From: Hericium rajendrae
Taxonomy: Eukaryota > Basidiomycota > Agaricomycetes > Russulales > Hericiaceae
Direction of reading: 5' to 3'
Assembly: GCA_033439255.1 (NCBI GenBank)
Contig: CM065882.1
Location: forward strand, 2,046,001 to 2,110,000
Length of the DNA: 64,000 nt
Positions 14,913 through 54,700 of the stretch are shown here, one piece after another. The notes beneath the pieces are model-generated. The model searched no databases and was not told the origin of the DNA. It saw only the letters and a program-made list of their open reading frames with translations. Position 1 is the first letter of the stretch, and each line of letters begins with the position of its first letter. Position numbers and translations under genes: made by a program.

Positions 14913-16701
14913 TCAAACCAGCGTCGCCAGCTGAATCTGGTTCTGGTTGACGTTTGTTGAGAAGTACGCGTTCTTGAGGAACGTGTCGCCGACGAGCCAC
15001 TCATTCGCGCCGCCGACGTTGCCCGCCGAGATGCCTGATGCGCAGTCGCCCTGGAGGTTATTCGGGTCCACGGGCGAAAATGCGATGTCGCGCGGGTCGA
15101 TGTTGAACGCCTTCCCGCCGAACGTGAGCGCGACCTGGTCGGTCGTTGTGCAGGGTACCGTGAATCCACCCTGCCCATCGGACTTGGCGCCCGTGATAGC
15201 TGCGTGGATCGTCGCTGCGTCCTGCTGGGGGACGAGCATGAGCGTGGTGCCAGTGTCGAGGATCGCGGTGCGGCCCTGGAAGCCGAGATCCTTCCCGTTG
15301 ACGGAGGCGGCGTCGAGGTCTGCCTCCCAGAAGCCCTGCTGGTTGACATTCTGAAGCGTCACGAGTGAGGCCTGGTCGAATTTGGTCGTGTCGAGGCCGC
15401 CGAAGGTCACCTCGCCGTTGTTGTTCTGATCCGCAACACGCGCGAGTTTGAAGGAGGTGATGGCCTCTTTGATAAGGCCGGCGGAAGCCATGGCCTCGAC
15501 GGGAGTTGCGACCTTTTGCTGAGAAAGCGTCTGATCACAGATTCCGGATCAGTTTTGACATCTGATGAGTGAGAGTAAAGGAGCTTACGCTCTGTGCAAG
15601 ACCCATGAGACCATCGAAGGGAACAGTGTTCGATGAGAAATCGACACTCTCGGTTGTAGCGACACCGTACGTGTGCGCGTCCAGCGCCAATCCGGCAACA
15701 TTGATGTTGTCCTTTATGATCGCACCAGAAACATCACCAGTTCCATACGAAACCTGGAACGGCGTCTTGCTGGCGACGAAAGACGAGGATGATTGCGGGC
15801 CTAAGAATACGTGGTTACCCTGCAAAAGGAACAGGGTTAGCGTGCGGACAGAGGCGGAACACATCAGCACGTACGCAGCCTCCACCGGCCTCGCTCTGGC
15901 AGCCCTCAGCACCAACCCACAGATCGGCAGACCCCGAATCCATGAGCAGTTTGAAGTCGCGGGGCGGGGTGCCCATCTGCACGGTAGCAATATAGCCGAC
16001 GTCGTTGGCCTCAATGTCCAAGCCAAGAGAATTGTCGGCGGTGGCGTTGGATGCGGGCGTCAGAGTATTGTCTTCTGCCGCCTGTTCCGCTACTGGGCTA
16101 AAGCCAGCACTGCTGGTCGAGTTGGCAGCACTGCTGGTCGAGTTGGCAGCACTGCTGGTCGAGTTGGCAGAAGCGGTTGCACCTGCCGCAGCGGCGGCGG
16201 CACCACCACCAGCAGCTGCACCGCCGGCGGCGGCAGCACCACCTTTGCCCTTGCCTCCGGCGCCCTTCCCATTAGCTGCCGCGCTAACGACCTTATTGAC
16301 GGCGGCCTTGGCCGATGCCGGTGTGACTTTAGCGCCTTGACGGTTGTAACGTGCCTCAAGGCCACCGGATGCCTCGACCGAAAGGACACGTTTCCTCAGG
16401 GCATGGGAGAGCTCTTCGTCGGAGGGGGCATCCCGACCGGAAAGACGAGCCAGACGCTTATTGGAGCGATTGATGTGCTGTTGCAAGAGCTGACGGATAT
16501 TTTGATATTAGTTTACAGGATGGACAAAAATATGCAACAGGTGCGTACCACAAGGGGATGGACATCGCTCCTAGGCCCGTGGACGCGCTTCAACGGCAAA
16601 GTGACGATGCCGGCGTTCCCGTCAACGGGAAGGGCAGAGACTTGGGTGAGTGCGATGAGAAGGCTTCCCAGAAGCACGGAGAAAGAGAGAGCGAGCTGCA
16701 T
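14913..16701 (-). CDS. Secreted pepsin-like aspartic protease
   Basis: A family A1 aspartic endopeptidase. It starts with a signal peptide (MQLALSFSVLLGSLLIAL..). The propeptide follows, then a Gly/Ala-rich stretch and three copies of the heptapeptide ANSTSSA encoded by a 21-bp tandem repeat. The mature enzyme shows YIATVQMGTPPRDF, first catalytic motif LMDSGSADLW, flap region VSYGTGDVSG, and second motif AILDTGTTLM. It ends in a conserved NEWLVGDTFLKNAYF block. DSG and DTG are both intact, so it should be active. Introns interrupt after AEGCQSEAGGGC, after GLAQS and in the propeptide. The ATG at 16701 is preferred over an upstream TTG because it gives a clean signal peptide. Likely role: extracellular protein breakdown. 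Confidence 0.93.
16108..16171. repeat. 21-bp tandem repeat inside the protease gene
   Basis: About three copies of a 21-bp unit (GCACTGCTGGTCGAGTTGGC plus A on the plus strand) stand head to tail. The copies are nearly identical, which suggests recent expansion. The unit keeps the frame and encodes ANSTSSA in the linker ahead of the catalytic domain. Confidence 0.9.
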
Positions 16702-19802: not shown

Positions 19803-19919
19803 GGCGGACTAGCGTAATGGTCAACGCGCTAGTTTCCGGTTCCGATTACGTAATCGCATTACGGTCGTAATCACAAGCCTGTTAGCTAGAGATTCTGGGT
19901 TCGAGTCCCAGGCCCGTCG
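19803..19919 (+). tRNA. tRNA-Arg (CCG) with a 44-nt intron
   Basis: Cloverleaf parts: acceptor GGCGGAC against GCCCGTC, with one A-C mismatch; D arm GCGT/ACGC; anticodon stem CTAGT/GCTAG; loop TTCCGG..A with anticodon CCG; T arm CTGGG-TTCGAGT-CCCAG. An intron of about 44 nt (19840-19883) sits at the standard position between 37 and 38. A run of T residues directly follows and would serve as a Pol III terminator. The acceptor mismatch leaves some doubt about full function. Confidence 0.8.
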
Positions 19920-22562: not shown

Positions 22563-24664
22563 TCACAACTGCTCCTGGAACCTGCTCTCAACGGGCGCCT
22601 GGCCAGGCTCAGGCTGGGGCGACTCCGCCCGCTCGGCGTGCTGAGGCTGCTCTTCGCCATAGCTCGGACCATGCTGCTCCGAGCTCTCGGCATCGGCAGG
22701 CCCAGCACCCTCGGTATCACCCTCCGTGCGGCCATACGGAGAGCGCGTCCCCTCAGGCGCCTTCTCCTGCTGGCGCTCGCTCAGGCGACGGTTGAGACCG
22801 CTGCCGCTGCCATTGGCACTGCCCGCGCGCACGTCAGGAGACGGCGTCAGGTTCTCGCGCTCGCGAGGTTTCTTATCAGCCTGCGCGAAAAAGATCAGCG
22901 AAGACATGTTCGACAAATTGATTGTCGCTTACCAGGTACCCGTTCTGCCCGACTTCAAGTCCAGCCTCTCTAGATGGGTGCGTGTAAGAGGGAGGCTCCT
23001 CATGCGCGACGCCCTCTTCGGCAGTCCTCGCTTCCTGATAAGCCTCTTCATCTTCCTGCTCCTCCTCGATGCTGCTTCCCTCTTCTTCCTCACCCTCCTC
23101 CTCGCTGACATACCCAGCGGCGCGCACAGCGGCCGCAACGGGCCCACTGCGTTCCATCTGCTCGCTGGCGACGAGGTAGCGCGCGCACAGCATGCGGATA
23201 TCATTCCACCACTCCATCATGTCCTCATGGCTGCGCGCACGGAAGCTCCACGCGTGCCCGGTGCGCCCGAGGTGCAGCGAACCTGTCTTCGTCGAGCCAA
23301 CGCCATCGCGGCGGCCCTCGATATGGAACTTGTGCGACGTGGCCGACTGTGAGGAGGGCGGGCCGAGCGTGCACATTGGCAGGAAGAGGCTGAAAAGCGG
23401 CGCCGTTGCCTGCGTCGGATCAGACGACGCATACTCGTGCAGGAAGCCCGCGGCCGTGAGCACGAAGTACGACTCGCGGTACGCACGCGTGAAGCGCTTC
23501 TTGCGCTCCAGAAAGCCCGTGTGTACGGCAATAACAGAAGGGTCTTCCTTGGAGGGGTACATGATCGTGTCGGGGTTGCGCAGCGGCGTCTCGGGGTCGA
23601 GCAGATGGTCAGAGCGCGCGGCGAAGGAGATCCACTCGTAGTCGGGAGGAATGGAAGCCATGTTTTCGCCAAGCCCGCGCCATATGTCCTGCACCGTGGA
23701 AGACATGCGCGACTGCCATTCGTCGAAGGTCTGCCAGGCGGATTGGACAGCGCGGACAATACCCTCTTCGAAGTGGGCAGAATTCTGCTGCATGATGATA
23801 ATAGACTTTTGCAACAAGTTCTCCTCGTGCACTTGCTTGTGCAGCTGACGGGCGACTGCCATATTGGCCACGAAGCTACGAACCATTAGAGAATGACAGC
23901 TAGCACAAGTGAGCAAAGGCACTTACGGGTCATTCTTTGCGGTCACTTGGAGGGGCGTGTTCTTAGCGATGGAGATGCTTGTCGCAAGCTCACCGACGAA
24001 TTTTGCAGAGAGCTCGCGCTCTTTGGCAACACTTGTGGCCAGCCTTCCGGTGTCATTTTGGACATTCTACGAGGGCGTTAGATAGGGGCTGTGCAGGGCC
24101 GCGAGCTAAACTATACCTTGATGTGCGCCTTGATCTCAATGCGCAGTTTCTGCAGATGCTGGACAATCGAGCTGTCGATCGTGCGTCCCAGATTTGCATG
24201 CTGATCTGCAATAGAACGGGTTTTATCCCTAATGCCGTAGTAGACATCCTTGACCCAGCCATCAGACGACTAGGCGGAGACTACACTACTAATATCGCTG
24301 ACCTGAAGACCGCCTTCGCCGAGGAACTGGTTGCCAGAGCGGAATGGCACCTGGATGACAGCACTGAGCTTGGTCATTTCTTTCGCAGTATTGTTTTCGA
24401 TGTCCGCAATGCCCTGCGCCCGGCGGTCAGCGGCTACCCCTAATGGCACGATATCGACTCGCGCACCTCGAAGTACGCGACGAGCTGCTTCACGATAGCC
24501 TTCCAGGCCACAAAACGCTCGATGAGGAGATCGGAGGGCTTGAGATCCTGCGGGGCGATGTTCCTCTTGATGAGGGACTGATTCTTGGACACGGTAGAGC
24601 CTTGTCTACTGGCCCTCGAGATGGAGGTCGCGCGCGACATGGACGCGGCTTCATTGTTCATCAT
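22563..24664 (-). CDS. SLM1/SLM2-like BAR and PH domain protein
   Basis: Resembles yeast Slm1/2, plasma-membrane eisosome-associated PI(4,5)P2 sensors acting downstream of TORC2. The N-terminus (SLIKRNIAPQDLKPSDLL, ERFVAWKAIVKQLVAYFE) begins the family's F-BAR-like helical region, which continues through FVANMAVARQLHKQVHEENLLQK. The PH domain follows, starting about VIAVHTGFLERKKRF, with KRFTRAYRESYFVLTAAGFL and closing around GHAWSFRARSHEDMMEWWND. A Glu-rich segment (SEEEGEEEEGSSIEEE) and a hydrophilic tail follow. About seven exons are present. The exon junction GYL|ADKKPRE near 22880 is supported by a GTAAGC donor. The divergent PHO88 start is 297 bp away. Confidence 0.88.
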
Positions 24665-35002: not shown

Positions 35003-36381
35003 TCAACTTGGTTTTTTGAGTAGCTCTTTGGCCACCTCCTCGTTATCTGCGGCCTGATCAGGCAGCCAGAATGCCTGAATGAACACCCCATAAGCATGAT
35101 AACGGCAGCCATCGAAGTCCACTTACCAGCTCGATGCCAGCCGTGGCCATCATCGCCAACCGGGGGTTGAACTTGATGCATCTTGACGGTCCGGGATGGC
35201 CATCCATCTTTGACATAGGCTGCAACCTCAATGGTGCGCTCTTCAGATCTATGGGCCCTGGTTTGCTCTGCAAATTCTGTACATCCCATATGCATACTCG
35301 TCCGTCCAGGCTTCCTCCGACGATATACTTGCTGTCTGGGGTCCAACAGACCTCCTCTCCGCTACATCCACGTTGCGGCTCGATGCTGACAGGCGTGTCG
35401 AGCCGTCGGCGCTCGAGTCCAATATGCCCCTCGAGCTTCGCGAGCAGATGGCCTTCGAAGGCGTCAATCACGTAGTGACTGTCCCCCGAGCATCCGACAA
35501 GGAGAAATTTGCCGTTGCTGGAAAAGGCAAGGGATGTCATGTATATCGCCCGAGGCGGGTAGGATATGAGGGAAAGCGTCGGGTCCTCGAGCGTGATGGT
35601 GAGGAACGGTGCCTTATCGAAGTTCGCATGGTCGTAGAGTAGGATACGTGAATATTGGTTCACGCCGACAGCGAAGACGACACCAGTGCTGTCATATGCA
35701 ACTACCGGAGAAGCGGGAAGGTTGAGCAAGCCGCGGCAGGAGGGCGTTCGTAGATCCCAGAGTCGCACGGTTTTGTCCATGGAGCCGGACATGAACCCAT
35801 CGTCGACGGGAGAAACCTCGAGTGAGATTACACGCTGCTTGTGACCTTTGAAATATTGAAGGTACTTGTTATCGTGCAAGGAATGATACCGAATTGTGTC
35901 GTCCTCCTTTGTAGACGCATGCACTATCGCGGTGTTCTTGTGTGTGAAACGCGGTAGATCAACACCGTATTTCTTGGAATACAGCGTCTTTACGATCCTG
36001 TGTAATGCATTCTGTTATCAGTTAAATTCGATGATACACGAACCTGGAATGAAAGAGTGACTTGCTTGCCGGATTTACAGTTATACAGACGGAACGTCTC
36101 GTCCTCTGCCGCCGTGATAATTTGATCCCCCCTGTCGTCAAACGACATTCCTGTGATGTGTCGGATTGTCTGATTCTGTGTTCGACTGCCTGGTGTTGGC
36201 GGAGGGGCAGGTTCCACTGCGGTTTTGAAGATTTTGGCGGGCTTCAACTTGCTCTGTTTATACACCGATGTCAATGATATTTCTCACAAGACCACTGCTC
36301 ATCTACCATTATCGTGGGTGTAAGTGACACCATGGCGGCTGTCGATGATGAGGCAGCATTGTTCGCTACTGGTGGGGCCAT
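35003..36381 (-). CDS. SWD2: SWD2/WDR82-type WD40 protein
   Basis: A WD40 subunit shared by the COMPASS (Set1) H3K4 methyltransferase and the cleavage and polyadenylation machinery. The core reads SKLKPAKIFKTAVEP, ITGMSFDDRGDQIITAAEDE, TLYSKKYGVDLPRFTHKN, DDTIRYHSLHDNKYLQYFKG and GSMDKTVRLWDLRTPSCRGL. It closes VGGSLDGRVCIWDV, CIKFNPRLAMMATAG and AFWLPDQAADNEE, with the AFWLP end typical of the family. Exon 1 was placed upstream at the ATG at 36381 (MAPPVANNAASSS..) and spliced into SKLKPAKI, because the long frame around 36270 has no ATG. One insertion (HIGLERRRLDTPV region) is longer than in WDR82. The RPB5 start is 112 bp away on the other strand. Confidence 0.9.
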
Positions 36382-40027: not shown

Positions 40028-41174
40028 ATGCCCTCTCTCATTCAACCCATGGCTCGTTCCTTCTACCTCCCCGATCTCCTATCTCTCTCGACGCCCTTCA
40101 AGGGCTCCACCAACCCGCACTACAAGAAGGCTGCGGCCGAGTCAAGAGCCTGGGTCAACAGTTACAATGTCTTCACTGACCGCAAGAGGGCATTTTTCGT
40201 CCAAGGATGCAACGAGCTGCTCGTCTCTCGCACCTACCCTCACGCAGGATACGAGGAGTTCCGCACCTGCTGCGACTTCGTCAATCTCCTCTTCGTCGTC
40301 GATGAAGTTAGTGACGACCAAAATGGTGAGGATGCCCGCCGCACTGGCGAGGTGTACCTCAACGCTATGCGTGATTCGGAGTTTGATGATGGCTCTGCGC
40401 TTGCCAAGATGACGAAAGAGTGCGTTGATTACCATTTTCATCTGCTTTGGACAGTCTCTAAACTGATAGTGGGCGGTCAGGTTCCGGGCCCGATTATTAC
40501 GCTCCACTGGTCCACACGCGTTCGCCCGATTCTTGAAGCACAGCGAAGACTACATCGATTGTGTCGCCAAGGAGGCCGAATACCGAGAGCGTGGCGAGGT
40601 CCTCGACATGGAGTCCTTCAAGCATCTTCGCCGCGAGAACAGCGCCATTCGGCTTTGCTTCGGTCTTTTCGAATTCACTCTCGGAATTGATCTTCCCGAC
40701 GAAGTCTTCCAAGACCCCGTCTTTTCCCGTCTGTATTGGGCAGCTGCCGACATGGTCTGCTGGGCGAACGTGAATTGCATTTTATTCTGATCTCGTATCT
40801 GACCCTAACTATGTGGCATGCAGGATGTCTACTCCTACAACGTGGAGCAAGCGAAAGGCCACACTGGCAACAATATTGTCACTGTCCTCATGAAGGCGAC
40901 TGGACTCGACCTGCAGGGCGCAAGCGACTTCATCGGTGTATACTATAAGGAGCTGATGGAGCGCTACCTCGCGGACAAGGCCCAGCTGCCTTCGTTCGGC
41001 CCATCACTCGACAGGGACGTCGCACTATACATCCGCGCCATGGAGAATTGGCCGATCGGCAATTTGGAGTGGAGTTTCGAGACCAACCGCTACTTCGGGC
41101 CTATACATGACCAGGTGAAGCGCACACGTCTCGTCCTTCTGAAGCCGGCCGCGGTCGAAGATGATGATGAATGA
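40028..41174 (+). CDS. Sesquiterpene synthase (class I terpene cyclase)
   Basis: Cyclises a prenyl diphosphate, most likely farnesyl diphosphate, to a sesquiterpene. The aspartate-rich metal motif is DEVSD within [13 protein letters not shown]. The NSE-type motif is formed over an intron as [10 protein letters not shown]. The Arg-Tyr pair near the C-terminus (ETNRYFGP) is the diphosphate sensor of basidiomycete enzymes. Four exons give about 340 residues, normal for the family. The start ([18 protein letters not shown]) is family-like. Metal-binding residues are intact, so the enzyme should be active. The product cannot be read from the sequence. No P450 or other tailoring gene is recognisable alongside; the nearest gene is the mevalonate kinase fusion about 2 kb away, on the opposite strand. 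Confidence 0.95.
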
Positions 41175-43117
41175 GGTACGCATCGCACGCTCTGTGATCT
41201 TTCTTTTGGCCGACGTGCTGACTCGTCCGATTAGCGAACCGTATCCCACATTCGCAAACACCAACTATCTCTGCCGGCACGTGTCATAACCATGTACCAT
41301 TGCTACCATTGCTATCATCACCTTCCACATTGAATGTGGTCGTACAAAACTCATTCTATTTATCACTGGACATTCCTTAAATCCAGTAGTTATTCGCCCT
41401 CTCTACCATAGCTTTGAACACTTCTATGTTCAGTAATAGCTAATTCGACACAGTACATATTACTATTTACCCACCCTCGACTATCATATATGTATTTTCC
41501 GATCAGAGACTTACGGATGCTCGTTCGAAAGTCAAGGCCCGTATCAAACATCGCTTGGACTTCTTTCCCGAAGCATTTCTCGTCCGCAAAGCCGCGGCTG
41601 GTGACAAAAATCACTTCACCCGTCCAGGCCCAGAAGAAGTTCATCGGCGAGATCAGTAGGGCATGATGAACAAATGCACCCGTGCCCATCAGCGCACCCA
41701 ATGCCAGGGTATTGCCCTTCAAAATTAAATGCAGGTGCAGGTGGTTGGACATGCGACTGACCGTCAGCCTTCAAGTGGGGATGTATGTTTCCTTTCATCA
41801 TGTTGATTTCATGATAATGGACACAGGGACGGTAGATTTCGTGCACGAACATGACCTTCGGCTTCGCTCATCGTGCAAGCGCGGCGTACACCAGAGTCGA
41901 TCGGGTTTCTCGTCTTGGAAACTCGAAGCTCAACGTATGGTATCCGCTGCCTCTCCCCACGTCCATGTCGGTTTTGTACTAGGCCCATGATATTAATATT
42001 GCAGTATAAGTAAATCAACGATTTATGTCGGCAATCGTTTGTCGAGTTTGTCAAAGGCTGGTTGGTGACCGATCTCTATGTGGAAGAATGTCTGGGAGCA
42101 ATGGGAGAGGGTGGTTTCCTTGGCTTATCATGCCTAAAACCTTCGAGAACCTCGCTCCTCATACAAGTTTCTAGAGCGTACATCATAGAGTTAACTTTGC
42201 TCATGCATGATGCTGTTTTTCTCATCCCGGAAATCCTTGAGAACAATAATGATATACAATGGTATCAGAAACCTGACCTACCATGCCGAGCTCACCGTGA
42301 ATAATATTGCAGTACATACTTCATCATTGGGACCTGATTATCCCATACGGTATTAAAGGCACTACGCCAGTTCTGATCGGCATAGGACCTACGAGCTTCG
42401 GCTCGTAACAAGCATTATCAGTTTTCTTGAGCTCATCTTGGAAACTTGAAAAGCGTCTGGAGCGAGCTGTCATCGCTCGTCATGCTACAAAGCTGATGAT
42501 CGGTGTCGGCAACAGTTGGTCGGGACGTCTGGACGCCACTACTGGGTCATCGGAGTCAGCAATCGTCAGTCGGGGACAATGGACTGGGCCAGTACTGGGC
42601 CGAATGTAGCCAGCTGCCCACCATGTGAAATGCGTTAACCATGGACATCTGCCGTGAGCCTGGCGTTCGTGTAAATAACGTGGATAACATGGACCCATTT
42701 GTAGGAAGAGCACAATCAGAGATAGCCGATATACGATACGAGCGCCATCATCAGCTGTCGGTGGAGGGGAATACATCGACACCACTCACCAGTGCCAGTG
42801 CGGCGTAGAGTTGATGCCAACTATCTTCTGTGCGTGTAAGGTCTGCATCATAGGCGAACTTGATGCAGTGCAATAATTGGGCGAGGACCGATACCGGAGA
42901 AACTTGCATGCATCTCCGTTGGCGACTCGGAGTCATCATCAGCAAGACGGCCGAAACGCATGCGCCTGTCGTCAGCCGCCTGACGTTGAGTATAGCGCGC
43001 AAAATCGCGCCTCCAAGCTCAAACTAGTACCAACAGCACACAGCAATCCGTACATATCGCCCTTGCATTGCAGGACTAAATCTTACAACAACATACCGCT
43101 AGATACCCCTTTCTAAA
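41175..43117. other. Intergenic region with a coding-like fragment and diverged repeats
   Basis: Between the convergent terpene synthase and fusion gene. On the minus strand about 41530-41710, spliced-looking sequence (GNTLALGALMGTGAFVHHAL, MNFFWAWTGEVIFV) has acceptor- and donor-like borders and could be an exon of an unrecognised membrane protein or a remnant. Two blocks near 41909/42431 and 42022/42497 resemble each other (CTTGGAAACT, TGTCGGCAA), suggesting an old duplication of about 0.5 kb. No full gene can be supported. Confidence 0.4.
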
Positions 43118-46100
43118 TCAGACATATAGCCACCTGCCGCGGCCCGCAGCCCACTCAGCCAACTCCGTGATTGCCTTCTCTTCGAAAGCAGCCTGCAATG
43201 ACGCCCGTCGAACTTCGCGCTCGCCCTCACCAGGTGTCTCGGGCGGCGTGGCGGGGCCAGCGTAGTTGTCCGGCTGATGCGGCGAGAGTACGCCGAGTCC
43301 ACTGCCGCCGACCGATGTCAGGTAGGGTACGAAAGCCGTGTCGGAGAGGCTGTCCACAAGCTCGCGGAGGACGTTCTCATCGAGATCTGTGGAGAGCAGT
43401 CAGTAAGGAGAAAACTCTGGAAAGGGGACCAGCCTTACCGTCGGGGATTAGGGTGACGGCGCAGCCGCCACCACCTGCGCCGGTCAGCTTCGTGCTCAGG
43501 CGGTACGGCTCCGCGGCGGTCCTAGCTCTGATGTCCTCGAGGACGGGATGCGAAACGCCGAGCGAAACAAGATGAGCGTGGTTCTCGTTGATCAAAGCCT
43601 TGACGCCATTCAATATCAGTAAGATGCGCGAGCTAGTACCTGCGAACAAACGCACCGACAAAGCAGAAAGCAGGGCGTCGCGAGACAGCTCGGTGTCCAT
43701 GAGCGCTCGCCTGGCTTCATCCGTGATAGTCTGGATGGCATCCAGGATACGCCCAATTGTCTCCGGGTCCTGTCGCTACCATGAGCCGCCTGGCATGTAC
43801 CCATCAAGGAAGAAACTTACCTCCAACTTCTTCTGGGAGACACCGGCGACGAGGCGCTTCGTGTCGCGCGGAACCTTTGAATCTGTCAACAGGAACCGCA
43901 AGGACTTGAATCTGACAGATCTCCGTCAGTCAAGTTAACTTCTTTGCACGATGAGAACGGCAGGAACTTACCCTGAGATTGCTTCCATTCCGCTCTTGCG
44001 TGTGAACCCAGGCCGTGTGTAAGCCAGCGCGCCTCCGAACACGGCGACGGAGTTGTCTACGCCGCTGGGGTTCCCATGTAGGATCTTCTCCGCGACGAAA
44101 GCCCAGCGGTTGGCCTCCTCCGCGATGGCGCTCGGAATAGCGTGCCGACCGCCGTGCGAGACGTGGATGTGGCCGGGGTCGCCCGCGTGCGGCTCGCGGC
44201 TCGGAGGCGGTGGACCCGGAAGGTCGACGCGCTGATGCAGCAGCAGCAAGGCCGTCGCGGTGCAGACCGAGAACGACGCGGACGAGCCCAGGCCGGCGCC
44301 GACGGGCAAGGTCGAACGGACGGTGAAATTGAACGAGGGCCTCTCGCCTCCGTGAGCCATAATCATGTATAAGTACAAGAAGGCAATGCATGCAGCCTTG
44401 GCCGCGGAATGTATGTCTTCTGGGAGGGCACGCTTCGAAATAGCATCGACGAGAATCTGGTCCAGCTGCTCAGGATGATCATTACCAAGATCCACGGGAG
44501 TCACTGCCTCCCAGGGTAGATTGTCGACGGCCCACTCGTTATAGAAGTTGCCCAGGTCGGAAAAGTTCAATGCAACCTTGCCATCATGACGGGGCGAAGT
44601 CAGCCCATAGCAGCGTAGATCCACAGCCGCCGCGACCGCCGTCTAGAAACACAAAAGATGTTCAAGCCCATGTCTACATTCCAGGAACACGAAAAACGCA
44701 CCACTCCATGCACGACCGCATGCTCTCCGAATAAGATGACCTTCCCAGGCGCGCTGACAAACCATTCGCGGTTCTCGACCGGTCGAACCGCGTTCTCGTT
44801 GAATGCAAGCTTCTCGACCGCGCGGCTGATCGCTGCGCCCTGGCGCTGGACGCCCGCGCGGACGAAGCGTTGCTCGTCGGCGCCGGCGGAGACCGTGATC
44901 GCGCCCGCCTCAAGGAGCGCGCGCTCAAGATCGTCGAGTAAATCCGCAGGGTCCTCAATGCCGACGCACAGGCGGATCAGGTCCTCCGGTAGCCCGCGAG
45001 CCGCCCGCGTCGCGGCGTCAATGGAGGCGTGCCTGTTGCAGCAAACTGAGTAACGAAACGCTCGGGGCGGGGCGGGCAGGAGCTTACGACATGACGCAGG
45101 GCATGCTTATAAGCGAGTTGACGCAACCGAAGCTCACAGAGATGCCCCAGAGGCGCGTCGCGCCGACGATGCGCTCGCTGAGGGCTTTGTCGCCCGTTGT
45201 GAAGCTAAGCACCGCGCCGTAGCCGTCCGCGATACGCTCATGCACCTCGCGGCCGGGGTGGTTGGGAAGACCCGGATAGTGCGTCTTGAATCCAAGGCGA
45301 TCGAGCATCTGCGCGACGGCCATGGCCGTCGTCTGCTGACGATCCATGCGGATCGCGAGGGTCTTGACGCCGCGCAGGAGAAGGAAGCAGTCGAACGGCG
45401 TGAGCGCATTTCCGGATGCGTTAATCACGAAGGCCATTTGCTGAAAGGAGCTGTCATCAGAAACGCTTATTCTTGGATCGCCCGTAAAAATAACGCACCT
45501 TGGCGAGGTCGTCACTATTGCACGTTATGACGCCGGCCATGAGATCGTGGTGTCCGCTGAGATACTTCGTCGCACTGTCGTACACAATGTCCGCGCCGTG
45601 TTCGAGCGGCCGCTGGAGGTACGGGCTCATCATCGTGTTGTCGACGACGATGATCGCGTTCGGCGCGCGCTCTTTGACGTCCACCGCGATCTGTGCCAAA
45701 TCGGCGATCTTGAGCAGCGGGTTCGTCGGGCTCTCCAGGAGAACCATGGCCGTTTTCCCATTCTTGATGTGCGGTATCAAGTTCTTCGGGTCGGTGGTGT
45801 CTACGTGGTGCACGACCACGCCGACGTGCTTGTTGATGTACGTGAGCAGGCGGTTGGTGCCGCCGTAGACGTCGTCGCCGGCGATGACCTCGTCTCCTGG
45901 CTTCAGCACGCGGAGGATGACGTCCAGCGCGGACATGCCAGACGAAACGGCGAATGCATGCGCGGCGGACGAGATTTTGGCGATGTGGTGCTCTAGAATT
46001 TGTGGTCAGATCAAATGCTCCTAGAAATGGGATGCGGGTTGCCAGGATTGATGCGACAGTCCGACCATTCTCGGACGATGAATCTAAGCAGCAGAATCGG

Positions 46101-46460
46101 CCCACACCACGCCTCAGATAGCACCTCTCAATTCCCACCATGAGAACCCAACATTCATGGCCTCTGCCGTTCCCCACACGACCAAGTAATGCGGGGCTCA
46201 CCTAGATGGCTTCTGGTGGGGTTTCCGCTCCTGGAGTAATCATACTCGCCCCCGATGCCTTTAAAAGTACTAGACTGGTAAATGGGAACTGAGCTCGAGC
46301 CGAATTGGTCCTTCTGCGCCGGATTTTCGACGGTAGCGCACAATGTGCTGAAGCGGTACGGCTTGCGCGGACGGTTCGGTGACTCGGGCTCGGGGGTCGG
46401 AAGATTATGGCCCATGATTGTCGTCACCTTTGGTTTGCTGAAGTCTATAGCAGGCGTCAT
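43118..46460 (-). CDS. Cystathionine beta-lyase / mevalonate kinase fusion
   Basis: One continuous frame encodes two enzymes. Residues about 1-395 are a PLP-dependent cystathionine beta-lyase (methionine synthesis): SSVPIYQSSTFKG, YDYSRSGNPTRSHLEHH, PLP-lysine motif SATKYLSGHHD, VINASGNALTPFDCFLL, and MSHASIDAATRAARGLPEDL followed by IRLCVGIEDPADLLDDLE. A linker of about 45 residues follows. The remaining 430 or so are mevalonate kinase: FVSAPGKVILFGEHAVVHG, GHMP motif LPVGAGLGSSAS, NPSGVDNSVAVFGG and LTGAGGGGCAV. The exon 45032-44702 carries the lyase end, the linker and the kinase start without a stop codon. No ATG occurs in that linker frame. Junctions before (MS|HASI, phase 2) and after (HGV|TAVAAAVDL, phase 0) are family-consistent. 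Both catalytic halves look complete. The start is the ATG at 46460; an upstream TTG is ignored. VPS71 starts 203 bp away, divergently. Confidence 0.88.
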
Positions 46461-46663: not shown

Positions 46664-47326
46664 ATGGCGCCCAGACGACAACGTGAGTGGATAATACTCC
46701 TTGTGCGAACGGAACATTGACCGATATGCTGTGGCGTAGCATCCCGCCAGACGCAGGCAGCCGCGCATACACTTGACGTTGAGGTCGTTGCAAAACGGAC
46801 AAAGAGACATCTCGACGAGCTTGAGGTCAGTCTTTTACGTATAATCGACTGTCGTTTCGTGCTCAAGTATGGCGTGATAGCGGTCGAACTATTCCGAACC
46901 GTCTGCATCTTACGTCGGCGAAGATGAGGAAGAGGAAGCAGCAGGCAAGACGGCCAAAGGACGTGCGAGGCAGACGATCTCAGACAAGCGGGGCGCTGGA
47001 AAGAAGAAAAAGTCGACGATGAACATCCGGACAGCGGTTCTGTACAGGAAGAACCTCGCGACGGTCATCGAGGAGTCGGCAAGTCTCCTTCAGCCTGCTC
47101 CGCTCTGCGCTCACTCACTTGTCTCCAGGGCATCGCCCGTCTACCATCAACAATCCCGACGTACCTGACTGCTGTGACTGGCCCTCCTCAGGTGCCATCC
47201 CGGCTGCTGTGCACGATCTGCGGATACTGGGGCCGATACAAATGCAAGAAATGCTCGATGGCATACTGCGATATGAACTGCCAAGGCGTCCACGACGAGA
47301 CCAGATGCGAACGACGGGTCTTGTGA
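46664..47326 (+). CDS. VPS71: HIT zinc-finger protein VPS71/SWC6 (ZNHIT1 type)
   Basis: A subunit of the SWR1 chromatin remodeller that deposits histone H2A.Z. Four exons assemble: MAPRRQPSRQTQAAAHTLDV and EVVAKRTKRHLDELE, then RSNYSEPSASYVGEDEEEE, then KKKKSTMNIRTAVLYRKNLA ending IEES, then GIARLPSTIPTYLTAVTGPP and the HIT finger. The finger reads CTICGYWGRYKC-KKCSMAYC and QGVHDETRC, supplying the Cys/His zinc ligands. Length (about 160 aa) is usual. The last intron begins GCAAGT and ends CAG, a GC-AG intron, because IEES must join GIARLPS. Exons are short and no single frame is long, so the gene is easily missed. Confidence 0.87.
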
Positions 47327-51724: not shown

Positions 51725-54700
51725 TCATGAGATGCCGAGGCGATGGAACATTTCAGTGAGGGTCTTGAATGCAACGGGTTTGACAAGGCTGGAGAGGCAT
51801 CGATGAGTATGATGATGTGAAAGTGCTTTCAGGTGATACTCACTAGCCATCGACTCCCGCTTCAAATGCCCTCCTCTTGTCATCGAGGGATGACATACCA
51901 GTTAGCGCCAGTATGCGAGCAGGTCGGTCTTTCTCGGTGCGCGTCGCCTCGATACTTCGTATCCGCAAGGCCGCTCCCACACCTGTACCCAGGCTCAGTA
52001 TAAGTGTCACGGTGTAAGAGACCGGCTGCTTACCGTCGAGAACTGGCATTGAAAGGTCAAGTAGAACGACACTGAAAGAATTCATGAATACAGCAGCATG
52101 ACATCAGACGGGTTTGCTTACTCAAAATGACCGTCAGACTCAAAGACATGCACGCCCTCTAGGCCATCCTCCGCATCGCGGTATTCATAGCCCTGCAAGA
52201 TACGTCAATTTCATCTCATAAAACCAGCTTTGGGAACACAGCTTACCTTGCTTTGCAGCCACCGGACGCTTAAAGGAAGCTTCAGCCTCATCTGCATTAC
52301 AGACAACAGAAGGATGTACGTACAGGAGATTTCGAAGCACGCTATTGTCCTCTACTACAAGGACCCGTATGCGATCCTTCGATTCAAGGGAGTTGATTGA
52401 CGTCCTCAGCAGCGTCCTCCATTGCCTACCGCAATCGTCGGACTCGACGTGCTGTGCGTGTGGCTGAGAGATCGTGTCCGAAGCATGGACGCCATGTCCG
52501 GGTTCAATTCCCCCTCCTCCTCTTCCGAAGGACTAGCCATAGTGGCCCAAGATGCCACGGGATGCACCGTGATAGACCGCGGACCCATCAACGGCCGACG
52601 AGAAGGCGGGCCCTGCCCTGACGACTCTTCCGAGTTCCGACGTGCGACAGCAGGAGCAACAGGAGCTTGAGAATTGAGGTACTTCACCGACTGCGGGAAA
52701 GTGACATTCTGGTGTGAAGGACTGCCGGCCATGCTCGGGGCTCCAGTAATGGTCGGTGAATGCCTACCGATTTTGAGGGCGTGCAGACACAAGTTCAATA
52801 TGGCCCGCAGCCGTGACGGCCCCCCAGGCTTGTATAGCACGCGACAGAACCCACCGATCCGCTCATAATCGTTGACGGTCGTCATGAGCCGCTCACTTCC
52901 GCGGGCAGTCGTGAGGATTACAAATGGCCTGCTGGCATCCCTCTGGTCGACAGCTTGCTGCAATGATGATAAGTCCTCGTTGACGATGACCACGTGTCCG
53001 CTTGTACCGTCGGGAGCGATCTGGAAACCCCACCATGCTGTTAGGTAGTGGACGAGCACCTTGTGCAGAAGGAGTACGCCACGATGCGAGTTATCGAAGC
53101 CGACGAGTGAGACAGTCCGAGGCTCCTCGAGCTGAAGAGGATCCATGACCGACGGCTGTGGGTCACCGTTCTCAAGCAGGTCTGCAGTGAAGGTGACTTT
53201 GATCTCAGTACCGACGTTCTCTGCACTCCAGACGTCGACCTTGCCGTCGACACCTTTCGACTGAACGATGCTGTTGACGATGGCGAGCCCAAGTCCCGTG
53301 CCAGTCTGCATAGGGTTTTCTTGCGAGAACGGGTGGAAAAGTTGATTCTATAAGAGACATTGAGCGCAAATTCTCATCCACGATGTCATCTCTCCACGGT
53401 ACCTTCAAGAAATCCTGGCTTATTCCCTGTGGGTCTTGTCAGCACGTTTGGAGAGACGAGAGAGCGATGCTTATTACCTTGCCTGTGTCAATTACCGACA
53501 GCTCTATTTTGGTCTTGTTAGCGGGTGTATCTGAAGTCCGTGGCAACTGGCGCAAGACAACGTGAACGTATCCATCCTGACACAAAGTCTCAGTCCAATG
53601 AACACAAATAGTACGGATACCGATGCTGACCGTAGTGAACTTGAGACTATTTCCGAATATATTCATGAGAACCCTCCTGATGCCCCCCCGTTCGCACTTG
53701 ACGGTCCAGCCTTTGCCCTGATGGAAAATATCAGCTTCCACAGCAGTGACAGTGGTAGTTTGGCTCACCTTCTCATGGTCACCGATCTCTATGACGATCT
53801 CTACATGTTTCGAAGCCTTGCTCATATCCTGCTGGGGCGGCGAATACAAACTTCCTATCTCCGAGTCGTTAAGCATAGATGTCCGGGCGCGATAGCCTAT
53901 CCAACAACCCTCCACGGCCTCTTCCACGAACTGCATCAAGTCCACCCTATAGGCCGATAGCTAATTAGATGGGTGTCTACACCTCGGGAAAGTTGCGACT
54001 CACTTGGTGGAACTGATAACATTCTCAACGCCACCGGCTTTCGAGTTTCCACTGAGCTTAGTGAAATCTAAAACATGGTTGACGGTCTCAACCAGGGACG
54101 TTCCGCATGCTTGTACTGTTTGCAGGAACGAGACCTGGCTGTGGTTCAATGGAGTGTCAAACAGTAGCTCTGCTGCTGCAAGGATGCCATGCAGTGGTGT
54201 CCGTAGTTCATGAGAGATGCTGATAAAGGGAGACGATGAGCATTGAGCGAGACAGCCCAGCGTTAGCCTTACTTTGAAATGAACAGGCTTTTCGCCTTAT
54301 CCGCAAGGGTCATCCTGCGTTTCAGAACCGCAGACAGAATGATGACGCCTAATCCGCCTACGTCAGAAGCTAGGCAAAATCAAATGAGCACTCCTTACCT
54401 ATGGCGCGGAGGTAGGACAATTCATGGCCCTCGAGCTATAAACCCATCTTGAGCAAGGGGTGCAGTTTTCACAAGAAGAACTTACGAAACGTTGTCCATG
54501 TTCCGACGAGTTGTATGCACAGATCATAGCAAATGGTCGCTTGTCGATGTTAAATATTGGAACACCTGCACAAAAAAATGAATATCGGCCCTGCCCCATC
54601 CCCAATGGAGCCATTTCTCACTTAATGCATACTGGATGCCGTTCGGGATGAACGGCTTCAGCGGACCAGGAACCAATCCCTCGGAGATACGGCCCTCCGG

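Follow-up and report, generated by a model that had tools for sequence, protein, structure and literature searches.

Within the window, the whole stretch of 64,000 nucleotides of Hericium rajendrae DNA that was analysed, the minus strand carries a gene that joins a cystathionine beta-lyase to a mevalonate kinase (Table 1). Upstream of this gene and on the opposite strand lies a HIT zinc finger frame (PF04438, E 4e-07), an arrangement that makes a divergent promoter shared by the two possible. Pfam matches were obtained for 4 of 10 frames scanned, and each of the two tRNA searches listed a single gene that the other did not. More specifically, the tRNA-Gly is the only listing of ARAGORN and is absent from the Rfam result, and the second tRNA is the only Rfam listing at the gathering threshold and was missed by ARAGORN; because the latter is 117 bases long, it perhaps contains an intron.

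Table 1. Features of the window (positions count from its first letter)
Feature	Position	Strand	Remarks
Whole lyase–kinase fusion gene	43118-46460	minus	913 aa over nine exons, with stop codon
Exons 1-5	46460-46202, 45992-45499, 45440-45088, 45032-44702, 44642-43972	minus	
Exons 6-9	43911-43821, 43769-43656, 43598-43439, 43386-43118	minus	
Cystathionine beta-lyase domain	44903-46331	minus	residues 44-412, introns between; TIGR01329, PF01053, 1ibj
Exon 4	44702-45032	minus	lyase end, linker and kinase start
Linker	44759-44902	minus	residues 413-460; without Met, without stop; third-position GC 0.83
Intron 4	44643-44701	minus	59 bases; originally proposed as a switch
Mevalonate kinase domain	43274-44758	minus	residues about 461-862, introns between; 1kvk, 2r3v, PF00288, PF08544
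C-terminal tail beyond kinase match	43121-43273	minus	residues 863-913; ends LYV
Terpene synthase gene	40028-41174	plus	PF19086
HIT zinc finger frame	46928-47323	plus	PF04438
tRNA-Gly	706-776	minus	ARAGORN
tRNA	19803-19919	plus	Rfam
Start of aspartyl protease domain, frame	15818-16507	minus	Pfam
BAR-like and PH domain frame	22879-23922	minus	Pfam
WD40 repeats frame	35061-36014	minus	Pfam
End of histidine-kinase-type ATPase domain, frame	52409-53347	minus	Pfam

Gene model and domains

The exons of the fusion gene form a single frame from an ATG at 46460 to a stop codon that ends at 43118, and GT...AG borders are present at 8 of 8 introns. The original prediction that the lyase and the kinase share one frame with fitting splice phases is borne out by this model, in which an open frame of 913 aa joins both domains inside exon 45032-44702; the computed mass of the predicted fusion product is 98.1 kDa rather than the originally estimated value of about 95 kDa. 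VGIEDPADLLDDLERAL and SAPGKVILFGEHAVVHG both lie within this exon and in the same frame, and the other two frames of the exon contain four stops and one stop.

The lyase domain matches the eukaryotic cystathionine beta-lyase family TIGR01329 with 535.4 bits against a curated cut-off of 487.5 (E 6.1e-161), and among the best 25 of 53 NCBIfam matches this is the only family above its cut-off. PF01053 also matches above cut-off (E 3.2e-128). Among solved structures, this half is matched best by 1ibj (E 6.8e-107), a cystathionine beta-lyase of Arabidopsis. K229 of the lyase aligns with K278 of 1ibj and is presumably the PLP-binding lysine.

The kinase half matches the solved structures 1kvk (phmmer, E 7.7e-64) and 2r3v (E 2.3e-62), the 1kvk alignment covering query residues 2-400 of 454 and chain residues 8-381 of 395. 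Residues K13, E19, S146, E193 and D204 of 1kvk correspond to K466, E472, S600, E664 and D675 of the fusion and are all kept, as is T243 of 1kvk; these residues are assumed here to have catalytic or ATP-site roles. Compared with 1kvk, the middle of the fusion kinase is longer by 17 residues, which are split into one stretch of 10 and another of 7. PF00288 and PF08544 are above cut-off in this half, and both are general GHMP kinase models; no curated mevalonate kinase model is found among the best 25 of 53 NCBIfam matches, all of which are lyase-type families. Thus, the name mevalonate kinase derives from the solved-structure matches and the literature.

Between the end of the lyase model at residue 412 and the start of the kinase alignment at residue 461 there is a linker of only 48 residues (144 bases). 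As originally stated, this linker contains no in-frame ATG (0 Met across residues 413-460), and the closest in-frame methionines around it are residue 368 (45092), within the lyase, and residue 572 (44366), within the kinase. GC content at the three codon positions is 0.73, 0.48 and 0.83 in the linker, similar to the values for the lyase (0.62, 0.42, 0.80) and for the kinase (0.65, 0.47, 0.73). The openness of the linker was considered as proof of the fusion and dropped, because 32% of its composition shuffles (n=20,000) are also open and openness alone is therefore weak evidence. The case for a fusion rests on the presence of both domains in one frame and one exon, the small spacing between them and the fusions that have been published.

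Fusions described in other basidiomycetes

The original prediction knew of no description of such a fusion; in fact, fusions of this kind have been in print since 2012 (PMC3342255, PMC3468542) and appear in further papers (PMC3720577, PMC4129116). In PMC3342255, the fusion is named metC-MVK and is reported from 12 basidiomycetes, with L. bicolor as an exception, and not outside basidiomycetes. There, metC-MVK is given a mean length of about 886 aa and is described as the sole mevalonate kinase homologue of the basidiomycetes included in that analysis, its function and the reason for it being under study. According to an independent report (PMC3468542), STR3 orthologues are fused in all Basidiomycota examined except Postia placenta, the extra C-terminal part being about 450 aa long and mevalonate kinase-like with 30-40% identity; a preliminary analysis described there found no stand-alone mevalonate kinase in the examined Basidiomycota. 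PMC3720577 describes a mycelial unigene of Pleurocybella with an N-terminal lyase and a C-terminal kinase, and PMC4129116 describes GME67_g of Lignosus rhinocerotis, a 918-aa fusion that is the only mevalonate kinase match there.

As far as the published descriptions allow comparison, the gene in the window has the same domain order, with the lyase N-terminal and the kinase C-terminal, as metC-MVK (PMC3342255), the STR3 fusions (PMC3468542) and GME67_g (PMC4129116), and nothing in these descriptions sets it apart from metC-MVK or the STR3 fusions. Its length of 913 aa is close to the metC-MVK mean of about 886 aa and to the 918 aa of GME67_g. PMC3342255 also reports that 7 of 12 members (the legend of its figure gives 7 of 13) carry 16 inserted residues midway through the kinase region; the 17 extra residues relative to 1kvk found here, divided between two stretches, are at most a candidate for this insertion. 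In yeast, by contrast, the same two enzymes are the separate proteins Str3p and Erg12p (PMC3468542).

The observation of a lyase–kinase fusion in one frame is thus real, and since such fusions in basidiomycetes were described in 2012, its presence here is expected. The gene is a known kind of fusion and adds little beyond one more full gene model. No enzyme or functional test of the fusion was found in the available portions of the literature searched, no mention of the fusion was found in the parts available of PMC13412983, PMC11121823 and PMC4393869, and searches for literature on the fusion in Cryptococcus returned none. A scan of prokaryote genomes with the whole protein gave 24 pattern stretches and a scan of viral contigs with the kinase half gave 11, with no relatives confirmed in either; both scans reach close relatives only, so the absence of distant prokaryotic or viral relatives does not follow from them.

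Alternative readings of the locus

The gene is very probably a basidiomycete STR3/metC–mevalonate kinase fusion, most likely encoding one bifunctional protein. One frame, both domains and the conservation of the compared catalytic residues are established in the window, and gene models in many basidiomycetes together with one fused unigene have been established by others; from these we infer one stable polypeptide with both activities. The arrangement could alternatively comprise two near-adjacent genes, with the kinase driven by a promoter of its own within the lyase gene and starting at Met 364 or 368 or in an unseen exon. In-frame methionines at 45104 and 45092, within the lyase C-terminus, make such an internal start physically possible; however, the two domains are just 48 residues apart within one exon, and the fused gene models and unigene described in other basidiomycetes also count against two genes, which makes this reading very unlikely. 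The absence of all seven poly(A)-like hexamers sought at 45100-44600 on the minus strand points in the same direction, but as an argument against separate genes it is weak, because beyond the stop codon of the fusion itself (43130-42700) just a single such hexamer is present, TATGTA at 43056. An assembly or base error that joined two separate genes is conceivable in a single window, yet the matching domain order and similar length of the fusions described in other basidiomycetes render it exceedingly improbable.

A further reading, compatible with one bifunctional protein, is that the fused protein is made and that regulated retention of intron 4 switches expression to a product with the lyase alone. 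Retention of this intron does give a 512-aa product that contains the whole lyase, as originally proposed; the proposed switch is not specific, however, since six of the seven other introns also shorten the product. When introns 1 to 8 are retained singly, the products have 101, 264, 369, 512, 703, 747, 932 and 844 aa, respectively, and because retention has a shortening effect for 7 of 8 introns, nothing singles out intron 4. A switch specific to intron 4 was therefore rejected as a candidate, and its regulated use is very unlikely.

Predicted function and location of the fused protein

In the favoured reading of one bifunctional protein, the N-terminal PLP-dependent cystathionine beta-lyase would provide homocysteine for methionine and the C-terminal mevalonate kinase would feed sterol and terpenoid synthesis. 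Catalysis by the two domains is probably independent, at two separate active sites. The lyase and kinase reactions have no common substrate, and shared dose and location would thus be the simplest effects of the fusion. As to its purpose, we infer that fusion would keep both enzymes at the same level and in the same place and would not serve to hand on an intermediate. A putative metabolic link between the two enzymes through S-adenosylmethionine and sterols is possible. The mevalonate kinase step is needed by fungi for sterol synthesis. Because the basidiomycetes of PMC3342255 are described as having no mevalonate kinase homologue other than the fusion, the gene in the window probably represents the usual mevalonate kinase gene of a basidiomycete, tied to methionine synthesis.

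The LYV ending of the fused protein does not fit the usual peroxisome signal consensus. Yeast Str3p is described as a peroxisomal protein ending in SKL (PMC9929924); in contrast, the lyase end of the fusion is internal and buried by the kinase. The internal lyase end and the LYV terminus raise the possibility that the lyase is no longer peroxisomal. A general move of cystathionine beta-lyase out of this organelle through the fusion in basidiomycetes, an idea based on a single yeast protein and a single window, is rather doubtful; if true, homocysteine supply and mevalonate flux would be tied to one dose and one compartment.

The terpene synthase gene (PF19086, E 1.4e-49) and the fusion gene are convergently oriented, with about 1.9 kb between the former and the end of the latter; that a gene of the mevalonate pathway lies so near may be due to chance. 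A three-exon model of 343 aa fits this gene, one of four splice variants longer than 300 aa having been scanned against Pfam. The model contains DEVSD and NDVYSYNVE, which resemble the metal-binding motifs.
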